DNA from: a virus
Virus record (IMG/VR): IMGVR_UViG_3300033149_006567
Span: 1 to 64,000 of that record
Reading direction: 5' to 3' (one strand)
Length of the DNA stretch: 64,000 nucleotides
Positions 58 through 15,307 of this stretch are shown here, piece by piece; positions within the stretch are counted from its first letter, which is position 1; every line of letters begins with the position of its first letter. The position numbers were made by a program, and so were the translations under genes. The notes beneath the pieces are model-generated. The model saw nothing but the letters and a program-made list of their open reading frames with translations, searched no databases and was not told the origin of the DNA.

Positions 58-173
58 TTAGAGTGGTAACCATAGATGATTGCCATCAACTGGCTGCCGT
101 GCGAAATGGCATGGAACTTTGGAACAACGCAGGCACTAAAATAGGAGATATATTGCATGTCGCAATTACCTAA
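54..173 (+). CDS. 39-residue hypothetical ORF
   Basis: The ATG at 54 overlaps the previous stop as ATGA, and the frame ends at TAA 171-173, 17 nt inside the next gene. The product begins MIRVVTIDDC and has no signal peptide, membrane segment or motif I recognise. There is no Shine-Dalgarno sequence, so translation would rely on coupling. It could be a chance ORF; the tight overlap is the only support. Confidence 0.3.
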   Translation: MIRVVTIDDCHQLAAVRNGMELWNNAGTKIGDILHVAIT

Positions 174-3100
174 AAGTTTACATATTTTGCGTCAAATAGA
201 ATCAGATGGAAATTTGGTTTTGGCGCATTTTTATGGTAGTGGGTCGTTTCAGGACTTCTCGGGGAATTCGCATAATAGTACTCCGACGGCTGGTTTATAT
301 TTTAATAGAGATGGTGTTTTATTTACAAGTACAGGTTATAAATTAGATGATGGTGCAGATTTTATAGGAATTGGAGATATTACTGTTTGTATATACTGTA
401 ATCCAAGAAGTATTGGGCAAATTGCTGGCAGATTTATAGAGAATGGAAAATTTATTTTTGGGTTGACGGCAGGAAAAATATTTTGTTCTAGTGATGGATC
501 TACATCTCCGGTATCAGCTGCAATAAATTATAATATTAATAGTTTGTTTTCTGTAACTAGGGCATCTGATGGAATAGCAACAATGTATGTTAATGGAGCG
601 ATTAGCGGAACACCAGATCAATCGACAGGTACTCCTGTTGCAGGCTCTACTAATGTTATAATAGGTAATAGATCTGCTGGAAGTAGGACATTTGATGGTT
701 TGATGTCTGATGTTATTGTAGTAAATGGAATATTATCTCAATCAGAAATAGCACAAATGCACGGCGAAATTCGGTCTTTAAAATGGCCCACAAAAACAAA
801 GAGCAAAGCTAGTATATTTCTTCCGACAGATGCGGATGATTCTTCTTTAGTATTTTCCAGTGACATGGAATTAGTGAATGGAAAAATTGTAGATGCTTCT
901 GATAATGCAAATGGGGCCACCAAGGGCGGCACAAATTTATTTCAAACAAATACGATTTTGAGTAAAGCTTTAAGTTTTAATGAAGCAGAATGGCTGGATT
1001 TAGATACAAATATAGAGATGACTTCTGGAGATTATACTGTTGCAGCATGGGTAAGGCCAAGGGATGTTGCAGCAAAAGGCGGGATCGTAGGAAATTATTG
1101 GTTTATGTATGATACGAATAACAAACTTACGCATTATACGGGTTCGAATTATAGAAATTCAAATAATTCTCTTGTTTGGGGAAAGATGCATCATGTTGTG
1201 CAGACAATAGCCTCAGATGGCTCTTTAAGATATTATATTGACGGAGAATTGGATACAAGTGTGCATGGTGATGCCGATACAAGCATTGTAGCAACGGCAC
1301 TGGGGAATCACGCAGCGGTTGCCCCTTCTCATGCTGCTGACATGGACCTCGTTGATATTAAAATATATTCAGAAGTAAAATCTGCAGAATGGGTGAAGAA
1401 TCAGTATACAAAAGGAGCCAAAGCAGTTCAATTTCAAACATCTTATGGCATCGAGGAGTCTGTTGCGAATGTTACTTCAGGCTCGATAGGCGATTCTGAC
1501 ATTTATGTATCGACGGGTGAATGGCAGATTGTAAATGATTCTATTGGTGGATTAACTACTGGGGTTGATCTTAATTATGATGGAGATATGGAAGATGTAG
1601 GTGTTGACAATTATACTGTTGATAATTCTGCTACATTAACGAAAGAGCCTGGAACGAGAGATGGGGGCTTAGGGACTCAAGTTTTAAGAATTGCGTATAA
1701 TGGCAGTAGTTCTCCTGGCGCTTTTTTAGAGGGTGACGGGGGTTCTCATTTTTTAACTGTTGGTAAAACATATAAAATAACTGGCTGGGCAAGAGGTGAC
1801 GGGACTTTTTATCCAAGACTTATTGGTCCATCTGGAAATTATTTATGGGATGGAACTGCATCTACAGATTGGCAGTATTTTGAGTCTATTGATTTAGCTG
1901 CACGGGATTATATGAGATTTCGCTCTGATTGTACATCTGCTGGTTATGTAGAATTCGATGATGTTTCCGTTCAAGAAGTGGTAAGTAATACGAAAGTCCT
2001 CGAATGCAAATCTGCTGGTATAGCATATATTCCAATTGACAATTTTATGAGTGCCACAGATGCGGCATACGGGGCATGGGAATTTTGGTTGTACAAAACC
2101 AGTGGTGGAAATCCATATGTAATGTTAAATTCAGATACAATAGGCGAATACGATGCTGCTGGCTCCAATTCGTATGTATTTTATGCTTCTGGTTCTGAGC
2201 AGTATGTTTTTGGGAAAACTATAGGGGGGGTATATTCTCATATTACTTATAGTTCTGATGCAGGAGATACACTTTTAGATGCTAATGCATGGAATAAAAT
2301 TACTATATCTAGAAATTCTGCTGGAGTTTTTACTTTATATCATAATAACACATATGCTAAATTAGGAGCGAATCCCTCTACTCAAACGCAATTAATTTCT
2401 GGAAATTATTTGGTGTTAGATTTCGATGTTGGAGATAAAATATCATTAGGTGATAGAAATGGGGATTATGCATTTAAAAAATATTTAGGTACTGTTCAAT
2501 CAGCAGGATATCTTATTTTGGAAAATGATCAATCTACATTAACCCAAACAACAATTTATATTACAGCTACAAATGGGAAAAGTCTAACAATTGGTTGGGG
2601 TGATAATAGTTTTAATAAAGTAACATGCAATGATGTTGAACAAACTTTAACGCACAATTACGCTTCAGAAGGTGCATATAAAATAAAATTGTATGGTGAT
2701 GTAGATGCGATAACAAGTTTTAAGTGTTATAGTCAAGCTTTTATTTCAGGAGATATTGGTAGATTTTCAAAGATGACAAGTTTGGGAGATATTTCTGCTG
2801 TTTCTGGATTAACAAGTTTGACTCGTTTATATCTTAATTCAACTTCTGTTTCTGGAGATATTTCTGCTGTTTCTGGATTAACAAGTTTGACTCGTTTATA
2901 TCTTTATTCAACTTCTGTTTCTGGAGATATTTCTGCTGTTTCTGGATTAACAAGTTTGACTCGTTTATATCTTTATTCAACTTCTGTTTCTGGAGATATT
3001 TCTGCTGTTTCTGGATTAGCAAGTTTGACTTATTTACTTCTTTATTCAGCTTCTGTAGACACTTATACTTCTATAGCGCTTCCGGCTTGGGCTGGTATTA

Positions 3101-3258
3101 ATTTACAAATTCAAGACTTGGGCTTAGATGCGACTGAAGTAGATAATTTTCTTATAGATTTTGAGGATGGAGCAGGTGCAGCAGGAACAACTTCTGCGAG
3201 TGATGCCGCTGTTGCTAGTTTGAGAGGAGCGGGTTGGACAGTGAATGTTAATGAGTAA
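157..3258 (+). CDS. LamG / leucine-rich-repeat adhesin (tail fibre-like)
   Basis: A 1033-residue modular beta protein, probably a virion adhesin that binds glycans or surface protein. Two concanavalin/LamG-like domains lie at about residues 20-200 and 230-420. A jelly-roll carbohydrate-binding-like region follows at about 465-610, a third LamG-like region at about 620-790, a PKD/BspA-like beta module at about 800-870 and four leucine-rich units at 877-968. No signal peptide is visible, consistent with a virion part rather than a secreted protein. The start is supported by AGGAGA upstream. Base composition differs from its neighbours: one 60-base line I counted here (2281-2340) has 16 G+C, while one in the tape-measure region (16921-16980) has 27. 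This suggests recent acquisition. Domain calls rest on pattern recognition, not on a profile search. Confidence 0.7.
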   Translation: MSQLPKSLHILRQIESDGNLVLAHFYGSGSFQDFSGNSHNSTPTAGLYFNRDGVLFTSTGYKLDDGADFIGIGDITVCIYCNPRSIGQIAGRFIENGKFIFGLTAGKIFCSSDGSTSPVSAAINYNINSLFSVTRASDGIATMYVNGAISGTPDQSTGTPVAGSTNVIIGNRSAGSRTFDGLMSDVIVVNGILSQSEIAQMHGEIRSLKWPTKTKSKASIFLPTDADDSSLVFSSDMELVNGKIVDASDNANGATKGGTNLFQTNTILSKALSFNEAEWLDLDTNIEMTSGDYTVAAWVRPRDVAAKGGIVGNYWFMYDTNNKLTHYTGSNYRNSNNSLVWGKMHHVVQTIASDGSLRYYIDGELDTSVHGDADTSIVATALGNHAAVAPSHAADMDLVDIKIYSEVKSAEWVKNQYTKGAKAVQFQTSYGIEESVANVTSGSIGDSDIYVSTGEWQIVNDSIGGLTTGVDLNYDGDMEDVGVDNYTVDNSATLTKEPGTRDGGLGTQVLRIAYNGSSSPGAFLEGDGGSHFLTVGKTYKITGWARGDGTFYPRLIGPSGNYLWDGTASTDWQYFESIDLAARDYMRFRSDCTSAGYVEFDDVSVQEVVSNTKVLECKSAGIAYIPIDNFMSATDAAYGAWEFWLYKTSGGNPYVMLNSDTIGEYDAAGSNSYVFYASGSEQYVFGKTIGGVYSHITYSSDAGDTLLDANAWNKITISRNSAGVFTLYHNNTYAKLGANPSTQTQLISGNYLVLDFDVGDKISLGDRNGDYAFKKYLGTVQSAGYLILENDQSTLTQTTIYITATNGKSLTIGWGDNSFNKVTCNDVEQTLTHNYASEGAYKIKLYGDVDAITSFKCYSQAFISGDIGRFSKMTSLGDISAVSGLTSLTRLYLNSTSVSGDISAVSGLTSLTRLYLYSTSVSGDISAVSGLTSLTRLYLYSTSVSGDISAVSGLASLTYLLLYSASVDTYTSIALPAWAGINLQIQDLGLDATEVDNFLIDFEDGAGAAGTTSASDAAVASLRGAGWTVNVNE
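2785..3060 (+). repeat. Four tandem 69-bp leucine-rich repeat units
   Basis: Units start at 2785, 2854, 2923 and 2992, each encoding 23 residues with the core SGLTSLTRLYL. The first three are almost identical at DNA level; the fourth has diverged. The near identity points to recent copy-number change by slippage or recombination in a receptor-binding region. Confidence 0.9.
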
Positions 3259-10362: not shown

Positions 10363-11325
10363 GTGAAACGCAAGCCCCCCTTTCTCACTATCCTCCCAGA
10401 TGGCCTAGAAGTCCCCTGGAAGCCATTGACTGTCGGCGAGTATCTTAAGCTTATATCAGATCCCTACCTCTCTTTTGATGAGCTAGAAGATATTATATTC
10501 AGCAAATGTGTGTTAGATGAGTATCTGGTAAACAAAATAGATACTATTAAAGCAGGCATTATTCCGACTGTAGTAAGTGGGATACTGGCGAATAGTGTCC
10601 CCAATAACCTTCAAGAATCCCAGATGTTGCTCGATTATTATCGAGTTCAAGTGGATAAAAACTATCTAGAGGAATTGGTTTTAACTATTTTGCTAGCTTT
10701 TCCGGCTTATAAGCCCGAAGATGTTTATGAATTAGATTTGCAAGATCTTATGTATCGATTGGCCCTAGCAGAAAGAAAGTTGTTGATAACCGGGATGCTT
10801 CAGAAGCCTTTCAATTTATTTGACCCTGAAAAAGCCAAAAAGGCCAATAAATCTAAACCGAAAATGGATCCTCACGATTTTAAAAAGCAATGGGAGAAGT
10901 CTCAGAGGTGGTCTGAAATAAGACCAGGTTTTTCTGAAATGCCAGATTATTCTCCGCCTGTCCCTGAGTATGCTGGAGAAAAAACCGTTATCAGAAAAGA
11001 AGATACACCTCCTGCAGAATTGGTGACATCTGGGACCGAAACAGATGCTGGTTTGCTTCAGGAAAAGATGGTCAGAGAGACAATTCCATTTTATTCAGAC
11101 TACTTGGAGATGGTTAAGAAGGGTGATAAAATAACACCAGAGAAGATTAAGTCTCCCGCTCAGAGAGAAAAAGAGGCCAAGGAAAGAGTGGAAGTCAGCA
11201 AGAAAGAACTCGCCAAACAGCTTGCCCAGCAGAGAAAGAAGGAGACTCAGGAGCAGAAACGTATAAATAGCTTATTCGAAAAGGGATTAACTAAGAAGCA
11301 GAAGAAAAAGATATCTAAGAAATGA
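10363..11325 (+). CDS. Putative second tail assembly chaperone
   Basis: A 320-residue protein starting at GTG 10363, 4 nt after the previous stop and without a clear Shine-Dalgarno sequence. Residues 1-160 are probably globular and helical. Residues 160-320 are low complexity and very rich in K, E and Q, likely extended or coiled coil (QREKEAKERVEVSKKELAKQ). This architecture fits a protein that wraps the tape measure. Its stop overlaps the ATG of the TnpB remnant as ATGA. The assignment is positional. Confidence 0.45.
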   Translation: MKRKPPFLTILPDGLEVPWKPLTVGEYLKLISDPYLSFDELEDIIFSKCVLDEYLVNKIDTIKAGIIPTVVSGILANSVPNNLQESQMLLDYYRVQVDKNYLEELVLTILLAFPAYKPEDVYELDLQDLMYRLALAERKLLITGMLQKPFNLFDPEKAKKANKSKPKMDPHDFKKQWEKSQRWSEIRPGFSEMPDYSPPVPEYAGEKTVIRKEDTPPAELVTSGTETDAGLLQEKMVRETIPFYSDYLEMVKKGDKITPEKIKSPAQREKEAKERVEVSKKELAKQLAQQRKKETQEQKRINSLFEKGLTKKQKKKISKK

Positions 11326-11498
11326 CTTTCTTAAATAAAATTTCAAAAGCTTGCTTTCCGAGAATTGTTCATGACAAATGGAGTCGGCGAGGTTCTCGTT
11401 TCACTTGCACTGCGTGTGGACATAAGGCCCACGCAGATGTAAATGCGGCCGAGAACATTGCCGCGAAGGGTACGTCGAGTCTCACTAGCGTGCGTTAG
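11322..11498 (+). CDS. TnpB (IS200/IS605 OrfB) C-terminal remnant, 58 aa
   Basis: An intact 58-codon frame, ATG 11322 overlapping the previous stop (ATGA) and TAG at 11496-11498. Residues 8-49 match the end of IS605-type TnpB: a degenerate first zinc knuckle (ACFPRIVHDKW, where the second Cys is replaced by Arg14), then SRFTCTACGHKAHADVNAAE with the CxxC pair C29/C32. D39 is the position of the last RuvC catalytic aspartate. The nuclease core and the rest of the element are missing, and I see no TnpA. Local sequence is richer in GC than the flanks. It is either a decaying transposon fragment or a captured zinc-finger mini-gene translated with the tail operon. Confidence 0.8.
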   Translation: MTFLNKISKACFPRIVHDKWSRRGSRFTCTACGHKAHADVNAAENIAAKGTSSLTSVR

Positions 11499-11500
11499 CC

Positions 11501-14500
11501 GTGGGAAATAATTCGAAAAACGGCACCTGGACAAAATTTAATTCTCATCAGAATGTCCCCTATTCTCAGCTACAAGATCGTTGGCGTTCAGGTTCTCAAG
11601 ACCCTCAGGGTTCCTCTTGGCCTGCTTGGCGCAATGTCGGTCTTTTTGGAGGAGCCTTGGCCGGGGCGCATCTTCTCGGGAAAGCTCGTGTGGGCGGAAG
11701 GCCCATGTACGACAGGTTCTGGGGAGTCCTTAGAGGCCTAGAAGAATACAGTCCAGCTCAATTTCTCAGAACTTTCCAATTGGGTAGTTTTTTTAGCCAA
11801 TTTACTTCTACTGCAGCAGCTGAATCTTTTTATTCTCCAGATGTTTTCCTTAAAAATGAAGGCTTAAGAACTTATATGGAAGCCCTCATAGGTGGTGGGA
11901 CTAAAACGGCTCATCGCCTAATGCTTGAGGGGGCGACTTTCCGGGGAGGACGTCTTTATTGGGGGGCTAGTGAAGAAATAGCTCTCCGTCATGCCGGTGT
12001 AATACTCAATCCTCCATTTGCTAAGGGTGTGCAGACTCCTGCTGCTCGTTGGTCTGCTGCTTATGCCAGGTCTTTAGGTATCAAGGACTACGCGGCGACT
12101 TGGCGAGGACCTAAGCTTGAAAAGATGTTTGGGCTATCGGTTACTGAAGGAGAGCGGTTTGCCGCCCATATTATTGGTGGTCAGAGTAGGCTTCAGCATT
12201 GGTGGCGGATGGGTTCGGCCTGGGGGACCGAATGGGTAGGTCGTTTTAATCGCCTTCTTTATGATCCGGTTGAAATGCCTATTATTTCTCAGGCAGTTCG
12301 GGGAGCGACTAAAGCGGTCAGGAAGTTAAGTGGTGGAAGATTAGCTCTCAAGTATGGTTTCGGAGTTAAACCTGCTGGAGGGCTTTCTATGCTCGCGAGG
12401 TTGGGCCTGAAATGGGGTTTAGTCGCTGGGGCAGGCCTGACCCTTTGGAATGAAATTGATCGCCTTACACGCCAATCTGAGGCGTTTGAGGGCACATTAT
12501 TCGAGGAGGGGACGACTTATGGCCTGGCTTCTCTCTGGGCAAAGGCAAATATCTCGATTTCGGGAGCAGCAGAAACTCTAGGGTTGCATAGTTTTAGAGA
12601 ATGGCAGGAAGAAGTGGCTCCTGGTAGTACCAGTTTGCTAAAATTGGCAGCCTTTCCAGCCATAGGTGCGATTGCCGGTCCGGCAGGTATGTGGGGGCAG
12701 AGAGTCTTTAGGACTGCTCGCGGTCAGATCGCGGGTCAGAGTCTAGAGGCTGCTGCCCAAGCAGCCAAGATTGCTGGCAGAGAGTTCGGGGAAGGATGGT
12801 TCGGCAAATTAGCTAAAGGAGTAATGGAGAAAGTTCCGTTGCTTCGAGGCACAACTCCGATGAAATTCGCGGCGCTTTTAGGAGCGGCCGCTGGCACCGC
12901 CCTAGTTGCCCCATTTATTCCAGGAGCTCTAGTTCCCTCAGAAAGACCAGAAGAGTTAAGGGCTATTTATTCGGGCGAGAAAGAAGTTCCTATCAGGAAG
13001 GGAAGATTTTGGTTACCTTTCGGCCGTTCTGACGTTGCGGGTGGTCGTATTCAAAGATACCAACCGCATATTATTGCTAGGCTTCGAATGCGAGCCAAGG
13101 AAAAGGCCCTATGGGGAGAGGAAGCAGATAAGCTTAGTGAGTTTGAGAAGCTCTATCTAAAGGAATTCACTTATCACCTTGAAAATAGAGATCAATATGG
13201 GTACGCATTTCCTATCAGTTCGTTGCCCTTTGAGGATGTGCCTTTAGTGGGGCCTTTGCTGGCTCATACATTAGGTAAATGGATCAAGCCTCCCAGATTG
13301 CTCCGTACGGAAGAATGGGTGCGTGAAAGAGGGGGTGGAGTTGAATATGCTCCTGAGCCCTTAGGGTATGGAGAGGAATATCATCCAGAGTTAGGAGAAA
13401 TACCGAGGGGGGCTCCCGCAAGTCCATATGATTTAAAATCCTTAATAAGGGAGCAGACTTACCGCATGACAGAGGCCTTTGGGCTTTCGGGATTTGTTGC
13501 TACTGCTATTAAAGAAAAACTTACTGGTACTCAAGAGTTTTTTGCAGAGAGAACTGAATTGGAAAGTTTTCGGAGAGCTCACGGTGCTAAGAGATCCTAT
13601 TGGGAGCAAGAGATCGGCGATCCTGGATTCACGGAATTTTTTAGGCGTTTATATCCCCATAGAGTGAGATCTGTTAATTTCTATAATCCTCTCGAGTCAG
13701 GTGCTCCCAGTTGGTTGCCAGGAGCCGGAGAGAGATCACCTAATTTTCAACATGGAGCCGTGTATGCAAAAGTGCCCCTTGGGGAGCTTCGTTTGCCTGG
13801 CCCTGGATACGAAGCTAGATATCCGGAGTTAGAAGGAGTTGCTCCCGAGAATTACCCACTTGTTCATCAACACAAAATATTGGCTGATGTTGCAAGATAT
13901 AGCAACAAATTCAGGGAGATATCTCACAAAGTGAGACGAGCTAGAAAAACCGAGGATTGGGGGGAACATGAAGAGCGCATTTATCAGCAAACCTTGGAAC
14001 AATTACGCGCTCGTAGAGAACGTAGAGAGTTTCATGAGTATCAGCATCTTGAGCCGTATGGATCACAGGAAGATTACAAGACCTTTGAGTCCACTGTCCT
14101 GGCGGAGATCAATAGGTCAAAGGCTGCTGGAGAAAAAGAAGAAGGAGTTGTTAATTCAATATTTGGGGGCTATTGGGAATGGCTTTCTCATAGTGCCGAG
14201 ACTTCGGCAGAACAGCTGACTCCGTTTGCCCCGGTTTCTAAACTATTGCATATGAGAGACGCCATAGAGGACTATAAACAGTCCCAGTGGCTGAGCAATG
14301 AATATGCCTTTTGGCAGAATCCAGTAGAAAACTTTTTGGCTCCTTTCGCGACTTCTACGGCCCATGCATTCGGTGCTGATGCAACTCCGAGCAGAACTAA
14401 TCTGGTTAGATCTGTAGAGGAATATTTTGATACATTAAAGTATATAAAATATCGCCGGTTAGCGATGGAAGCTCAAGTTTCTGGAGATATGGAGAAAGCC

Positions 14501-15307
14501 AAGGAGTATTCCCAAAAACAAAAAGAAACTTTGTTTGGAATGGATCCTTATACCAGGAATGCAAGGGCTATTTACCGAGCTCTTCCCAGGAGAGAAAGGG
14601 ATTATTATCAGAGCTTTGTTAATGTTGAAACTCCCGGAGAACGAGCTAAGATATTAAAGATGATTCCTCGGAATGAGAAGGGTTTTTATCTGGCTCAATG
14701 GCAGTTAAGGTACGCCGATAAATTACAGAAGGCCGTTAAAGAGGGAGTGATTACTGGTGAGTTAGCAGACATGGCTACTCGACAGGTAGACATGGTTATG
14801 GCGCAGAGAAAGCACGAGGGGATGCCTTCCAACCAGGAACTGTTCCATGAGTACCTAGGGAGCCGCCACAAGGGAGAAAGTTACCCGGAGTGGTATCGAA
14901 GGACCAAGTTGTTGCCTAGGAAATTAGCGGGTATGGGGCTTCCGGGGCCGGATTTCGTTGGGTTTCACCCGAGTGTAGACCTAGAGGATGTTAAACTTAA
15001 ATTGGTCCAGAATATGGCCGAGAATATTCATAATTTTGACTTGTGGGATGATAGGGCTAGAGGATTAAAATACAAGCCGTATATCAATGACGGAATTGTG
15101 GAGGATTTAGTTTCTCCCCAATTGGAGGAGGGGGAAATTCGGACTAGACTAGATAATATATTCGGAAAATACAATATACGTGGGGGACAGTATCATATGA
15201 ATGAAATTAACTCCACATCTGGTAGGAATTCTGTTAATATAAATGTGAGGCATCGGAGAGATAGAGAAGTTAAAAGAAGAATAAGAGAGCAGCTAAGTGG
15301 CTTCTGA
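11501..15307 (+). CDS. Giant tail protein 1 (tape-measure region)
   Basis: A 1268-residue protein from GTG 11501, 2 nt after the TnpB remnant; no strong ribosome-binding site, so coupling is likely. The N-terminal 500 residues alternate Gly/Ala-rich hydrophobic segments (NVGLFGGALAGAHLL; FAALLGAAAGTALVAPFIPG near residue 455) with amphipathic helices. The C-terminal half is charged and helical, rich in R, E and Y, and ends in a basic NSVNINVRHRRDREVKRR segment. Membrane-like segments in a long helical protein between chaperones and baseplate fit a tape measure or a co-ejected internal tail protein. It overlaps the next gene by 11 nt. Confidence 0.5.
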   Translation: MGNNSKNGTWTKFNSHQNVPYSQLQDRWRSGSQDPQGSSWPAWRNVGLFGGALAGAHLLGKARVGGRPMYDRFWGVLRGLEEYSPAQFLRTFQLGSFFSQFTSTAAAESFYSPDVFLKNEGLRTYMEALIGGGTKTAHRLMLEGATFRGGRLYWGASEEIALRHAGVILNPPFAKGVQTPAARWSAAYARSLGIKDYAATWRGPKLEKMFGLSVTEGERFAAHIIGGQSRLQHWWRMGSAWGTEWVGRFNRLLYDPVEMPIISQAVRGATKAVRKLSGGRLALKYGFGVKPAGGLSMLARLGLKWGLVAGAGLTLWNEIDRLTRQSEAFEGTLFEEGTTYGLASLWAKANISISGAAETLGLHSFREWQEEVAPGSTSLLKLAAFPAIGAIAGPAGMWGQRVFRTARGQIAGQSLEAAAQAAKIAGREFGEGWFGKLAKGVMEKVPLLRGTTPMKFAALLGAAAGTALVAPFIPGALVPSERPEELRAIYSGEKEVPIRKGRFWLPFGRSDVAGGRIQRYQPHIIARLRMRAKEKALWGEEADKLSEFEKLYLKEFTYHLENRDQYGYAFPISSLPFEDVPLVGPLLAHTLGKWIKPPRLLRTEEWVRERGGGVEYAPEPLGYGEEYHPELGEIPRGAPASPYDLKSLIREQTYRMTEAFGLSGFVATAIKEKLTGTQEFFAERTELESFRRAHGAKRSYWEQEIGDPGFTEFFRRLYPHRVRSVNFYNPLESGAPSWLPGAGERSPNFQHGAVYAKVPLGELRLPGPGYEARYPELEGVAPENYPLVHQHKILADVARYSNKFREISHKVRRARKTEDWGEHEERIYQQTLEQLRARRERREFHEYQHLEPYGSQEDYKTFESTVLAEINRSKAAGEKEEGVVNSIFGGYWEWLSHSAETSAEQLTPFAPVSKLLHMRDAIEDYKQSQWLSNEYAFWQNPVENFLAPFATSTAHAFGADATPSRTNLVRSVEEYFDTLKYIKYRRLAMEAQVSGDMEKAKEYSQKQKETLFGMDPYTRNARAIYRALPRRERDYYQSFVNVETPGERAKILKMIPRNEKGFYLAQWQLRYADKLQKAVKEGVITGELADMATRQVDMVMAQRKHEGMPSNQELFHEYLGSRHKGESYPEWYRRTKLLPRKLAGMGLPGPDFVGFHPSVDLEDVKLKLVQNMAENIHNFDLWDDRARGLKYKPYINDGIVEDLVSPQLEEGEIRTRLDNIFGKYNIRGGQYHMNEINSTSGRNSVNINVRHRRDREVKRRIREQLSGF

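Follow-up and report, generated by a model that had tools for sequence, protein, structure and literature searches.

A phage reading frame of 58 codons as the probable remnant of an internally deleted TnpB element at the start of a tail gene

The window analyzed here, which comprises the first 64,000 nucleotides of the 97.8-kb virus record IMGVR_UViG_3300033149_006567, contains an intact ORF encoding 58 amino acids on the plus strand, in agreement with an earlier note on this DNA and with a check of the ORF and its translation. As that note also described, the start of the ORF overlaps the stop codon of an upstream gene (320 aa) in the sequence ATGA, and its own stop lies 2 nt ahead of the GTG of a tail gene (1,268 aa). 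The features of the locus are as follows, with the boundaries of the element accurate to about 1 to 2 nt.

10,363 to 11,325, plus strand: upstream 320-aa gene; relatives have the same neighbor, without an insert.
11,322 to 11,498, plus strand: chimeric 58-codon ORF, made up of an ATG (the probable native tail-gene start), left-end codons, a tnpB tail, and a frameshifted Arg codon followed by TAG.
11,326 to 11,529, plus strand: whole internally deleted element, about 204 nt from left to right end; the ends are common to L005, L002, and L048, and the flanks differ.
11,326 to 11,373, plus strand: left end, identified by alignment, without 29 nt that the L005 and L048 copies have.
11,373 to 11,492, plus strand: 3' coding remnant of tnpB (ORF residues 18 to 57), identified by profile matches; its DNA is nearly identical to that of L005 and L002.
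11,493 to 11,529, plus strand: remaining right end, identified by alignment and folds.
11,501 to 11,503, plus strand: GTG within the right end, with no other tail-gene start ahead of the conserved region.
11,501 to 15,307, plus strand: tail gene, 1,268 aa; codons 1 to 9 plus a junction codon (MGNNSKNGT-W) come from the element.

The TnpB identity proposed earlier for the ORF is upheld by a match to Pfam PF07282 (Cas12f1-like_TNB; E value of 9.1e-8, above the curated cutoff), and a profile search also matched it to the PHROG 506 transposase (E value of 9.6e-8). The score against NCBIfam NF040570 (guided_TnpB; 3.4e-7) falls under that model's whole-protein cutoff, as expected because the ORF is a fragment. 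Both the CxxC pair (CTAC) and the RuvC Asp (in DVNAAEN) are where they had been noticed; a complete RuvC core and a four-cysteine zinc ribbon are absent, with only the second CxxC and the last Asp retained. The ORF had been taken to preserve the end of a TnpB, which is true of residues 18 to 57, but residues 2 to 17 are read from the element's noncoding left end, and this region can be aligned, as DNA, with the left ends that precede tnpB in a sister phage. The zinc ribbon has lost two of its four cysteines, rather than the one reported, because the first knuckle (CAKC in L005) is wholly lost and Cys11 of the ORF is a left-end codon read in a chance frame. A domain search detected no other TnpB domain in the whole record.

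Relatives of the phage were recovered via the tail sheath (34 in total); the 320-aa and 1,268-aa neighbors recovered none when used as queries. The earlier note proposed a search for full-length relatives with intact TnpB at the same site; none of the nine related phages read there (0/9) has an insert, and the element is absent from 27 of the 29 related records searched whole, the two carriers being contigs of the sister species. In seven of the nine relatives the tail gene lies within 2 nt of the upstream stop or overlaps it (the distances are about 14 and 40 nt in the other two), and the homologues of the tail gene in all nine start without the element-derived stretch.

Used as a query against viral contigs, the 58-aa protein matched four loci. 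L003 and L004 are actinophage-like contigs that each encode a 394-aa TnpB, and L005 (UViG_3300033149_006603) and L002/L007 (UViG_3300033153_011712) represent one other phage species, referred to here as the sister phage. Upstream of a portal-like gene, both L005 and L002/L007 carry a close relative. The sister copy consists of a left end beginning with CTTTCTTAAGTAAAGTTCC, a tnpB with about 265 codons remaining, and a right end terminating in GTTAGCCGTGGGAAATAATTCAGAAAACGGCACCTG; its TnpB core matches guided_TnpB (3.2e-9) and PDB chains of Cas12f/TnpB. The element occurs at three sites in the sister phage.

L005 3120: site 1, start of the portal gene.
L005 319 to 534: site 2, end of a 142-aa gene; left end, then a 43-codon ORF.
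L048 6317 and L007 2800 (minus strand): site 3, end of a 216-aa gene.

The 43-codon ORF at site 2 (MNISKRGGQTV...) uses the tnpB start-codon position, and the right end there is weakly recognizable. As queries, the sister TnpB and the portal protein retrieved that same species alone from the viral contigs. The L005 TnpB had no match in the genome collection, where a C-terminal query of 84 aa, assembled from parts of L005 and the window, found distant TnpBs only; these genome-collection searches turned up neither a host nor a complete element. No complete copy was found among the viral contigs and the genome collection searched, and searches of phage and plasmid records gave no DNA relative. 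Among the loci compared, a sister contig (L051) has the tetranucleotide profile closest to that of the window, and it covers genes expected upstream of the window; the ends of the two contigs do not overlap. Both contigs may derive from a single genome. Separately, a terminase-like ORF of the sister phage (L010 3 to 1661) appears to hold the end of an intein (...GNGMLTHNC).

Alignments with the sister copies identify both element ends in the window, the left as CTTTCTTAAATAAAATTTCAAAAGCTTGCTTTCCGAGA from 11,326 and the right as GTTAGCCGTGGGAAATAATTCGAAAAACGGCACCTG up to 11,529, and therefore the ORF is contained in an element, about 204 bp long, whose middle is gone. Thus, the feature is not the ORF alone, as had been described, but a larger unit that takes in GTG 11,501 and the first nine codons of the tail gene. 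Deletion junctions lie at about 11,350, 11,373, and 11,492. The 29 nt missing from the left end comprise a terminator-like hairpin (GTTCC-AAA-GGAAC) and the following A/T tract; L005 has a terminator-like site at 3134, and none is found at the matching place in the window. A simple promoter scan of the left end found nothing. Upstream of 11,373, about 0.8 to 0.9 kb of the tnpB core is deleted, and a further 20 nt (CTGGCGAGACGATCAGGAGA), which held an AGGAG and one arm of a predicted RNA stem, are gone at about 11,492/11,493, shifting the frame so that it runs into TAG. The omega-RNA-like right end that the earlier note proposed to look for is present to 11,529 but is broken by this deletion. 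In L005 the right end folds into nested stems, of which one arm is deleted in the window, and, because shuffled sequences fold about as well (z of -0.85), the omega RNA scaffold is only putative. Candidate subterminal hairpins (GTTCC/GGAAC in the longer left ends and GCCGT/ACGGC in the right ends) fold as DNA no better than shuffles.

The presence of both ends, the longer copies in the sister phage, and the nine relatives without an insert at the site bear out the earlier suggestion of a fossil TnpB insertion. It is highly probable that the ORF belongs to a mobile element with a gene for TnpB, an RNA-guided nuclease, which integrated at the tail-gene start codon of the phage and has since decayed through internal deletion, and the 58-codon frame is probably the remains of that element rather than a new small protein. 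We infer that the window element no longer cuts, guides, or moves. All of the sequences are metagenome assemblies, in which an assembly fault at a repeat is possible.

The frame of the tail gene contains a stop at 11,486 to 11,488, after which GTG 11,501 is the sole start before the conserved region. Skipping 206 nt (the element plus one GA) would give an in-frame ATG ACA AAA TTT AAT TCT, which agrees with what the starts of the relatives suggest. GTG 11,501 lacks a Shine-Dalgarno sequence (+0.1 kcal/mol); the portal gene of the sister phage has an equivalent right-end GTG with a well-spaced AGGAG (-7.4 kcal/mol). The element most probably inserted at the native start of the tail gene, and the window copy then lost through deletions the hairpin of its left end, the core of the nuclease, and the part of the right end with the Shine-Dalgarno sequence. 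The native start, ATG 11,322, would now begin the 58-codon frame; ribosomes would halt at TAG 11,496 to 11,498 and restart 2 nt on at the GTG supplied by the right end, and the tail protein would open with nine element-encoded residues (MGNNSKNGT). We give an even chance to such a relay, in which the 58-codon frame carries ribosomes from ATG 11,322 to GTG 11,501 and which would depend on translational coupling because this GTG has no Shine-Dalgarno sequence.

Two further remnants, one of them doubtful, are found in the record that contains the window.

About 85,731 to 85,802 (outside the window; locus L053), minus strand: 72-nt remnant, left end joined to right end.
97,041 to 97,060 (L009 1501 to 1520), minus strand: possible right-end relic, 18 of 20 nt, with an E value of 0.0095 that chance could produce.

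The first has a 113-aa gene on one side and a DNA polymerase III-like gene on the other, and the second is in a truncated paralogue of a neighboring repeat protein gene. Elsewhere in the record, window positions 157 to 3,258 encode a LamG-like 1,033-aa protein with repeated, leucine-rich-repeat-like SGDISAVSGLTSLTRLYLYSTSV units near its C terminus.

Direct repeats of 7 to 9 bp flank three of the four scorable copies (P values of 0.0001, 0.0013, and 0.011 versus random flanks), in a test that covers four sites only and takes the element ends from a comparison of the same copies. The repeats are ACATTTT on either side at site 3, GATAAGAGT/TATACGAGT at the portal site, and TGAAATGA/TGGAATGA at the 85.7-kb copy, the last being a 7-of-8 repeat that regenerates the downstream ATG. 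The window copy is flanked by GA/GA only, which chance would produce; an 8-bp duplication with a later loss of 6 nt would fit as well. Target duplication is not known for IS200/IS605 and IS607 insertions. The left flanks (AATGA, AATGA, AGAGT, AATCT, and ATTTT) have no motif in common, whereas IS200/IS605 elements have a short conserved target motif on their left. No Y1 TnpA was recognized by inspection of the ORFs beside the copies in these incomplete genomes, nor was a serine recombinase TnpA of the IS607 type noticed there. With no TnpA seen beside the copies, no motif shared by the left flanks, and short direct repeats at three of four sites, the IS605-type assignment made earlier is not established; the absence of IS200/IS605-like insertion without duplication is provisional because the sites are few. 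The copies may, though this is less likely than not, belong to a TnpB element that is specific to phages, lies outside IS200/IS605 and IS607, and inserts at gene junctions with 7- to 9-bp target duplications, the start codon of the downstream gene being either regenerated, as at the 85.7-kb copy, or replaced by a right-end GTG, as in the window tail gene and the sister portal gene. If so, a start codon regenerated by duplication or an in-frame right-end GTG would allow essential structural genes to tolerate the insert and to gain element-encoded N termini.

The short window copy could also be a nonautonomous, MITE-like mini-element, moved in trans in its short form rather than decayed in place. 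It has both ends, and the 72-nt remnant at 85.7 kb, with its flanking repeat, is a second left-end-to-right-end joint. However, no internal structure is common to two short copies, and no transposase gene is seen beside any copy. The deletions in the sister contigs, compared at two sites, also speak against it: the portal-site deletion spans 23 nt around the second zinc knuckle in L005 and 37 nt around the first in L002, and at site 3, L048 lost the DNA between two TACAAA repeats and L007 lost most of the left end. Such dissimilar deletions in copies that occupy one site in the sister species are a sign of in-place decay, and movement of a short form is very unlikely. MITEs have been reported from viral genomes (PMC6004678); the present copies resemble them in being short, lacking coding capacity, and lying within a virus genome but differ in that no terminal inverted repeats were noticed and no uniform short form is repeated.

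Domestication, in which the 58-aa zinc-ribbon fragment would be retained for an independent role, for instance nucleic acid binding or phage regulation, is very unlikely, even though the frame is intact, its start is coupled through ATGA, and its TnpB tail is nearly identical to that of the sister phage. Near identity is explained equally well by recent descent and by selection, and the 58 open codons do not prove selection because chance leaves such a frame open in 8% (shuffled left end, right frame) to 11% (random left/right joins) of simulated cases. The N-terminal third is noncoding left-end DNA, the nuclease core and the first half of the zinc ribbon are gone, the right-end RNA is broken, and no relative retains the ORF; taken together, these points weigh against the domestication event that the earlier note had entertained. 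Phages do carry TldRs, nuclease-dead TnpB regulators that retain guide RNA and DNA binding (PMC13418256), and the window ORF is likewise a TnpB-derived phage gene without nuclease function. Unlike the TldRs, which are near full length, it has 58 residues, of which 40 are TnpB derived, and such a fragment, with a broken right-end RNA, cannot keep guide and DNA binding as they do.

A transcript that drops the insert and rejoins the native ATG to the tail gene is highly improbable. The 206-nt skip would restore the in-frame ATG ACA AAA TTT start, but the boundaries, taken against the conserved ends, would have to differ between the window and portal sites, a start codon is available in the right end itself, and group I introns are generally longer than about 204 nt. 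IStrons, which combine a group I intron with an IS605-type element (PMC4227781), are comparable in that a TnpB-family element is inserted in the coding start of a gene; unlike in IStrons, no intron family matches the window or the L005 element, even at permissive thresholds, and splicing was rejected.

The decayed TnpB element, as we interpret the locus, has a known parallel in Campylobacter phages CP220 and CPt10, which carry the TnpB-only IS200/IS605-family elements ISCaje1 to ISCaje3 (PMC2853527). Here as there, a phage lineage has several related TnpB-only elements, and related genomes carry them at different positions; in contrast to those elements, the present copies are mostly broken, occupy, in the observed cases, junctions between genes of the structural region, and are flanked by short repeats in three instances. 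As a small protein, the 58-codon ORF is of little interest, and the peptide itself is probably a by-product. The finding matters rather because TnpB elements entered this phage lineage more than once and were then deleted piece by piece, and because two different virion genes now seem to start within the right end of a mobile element. Should the flanking repeats be genuine target duplications, there would be TnpB elements that move otherwise than by the two known mechanisms.
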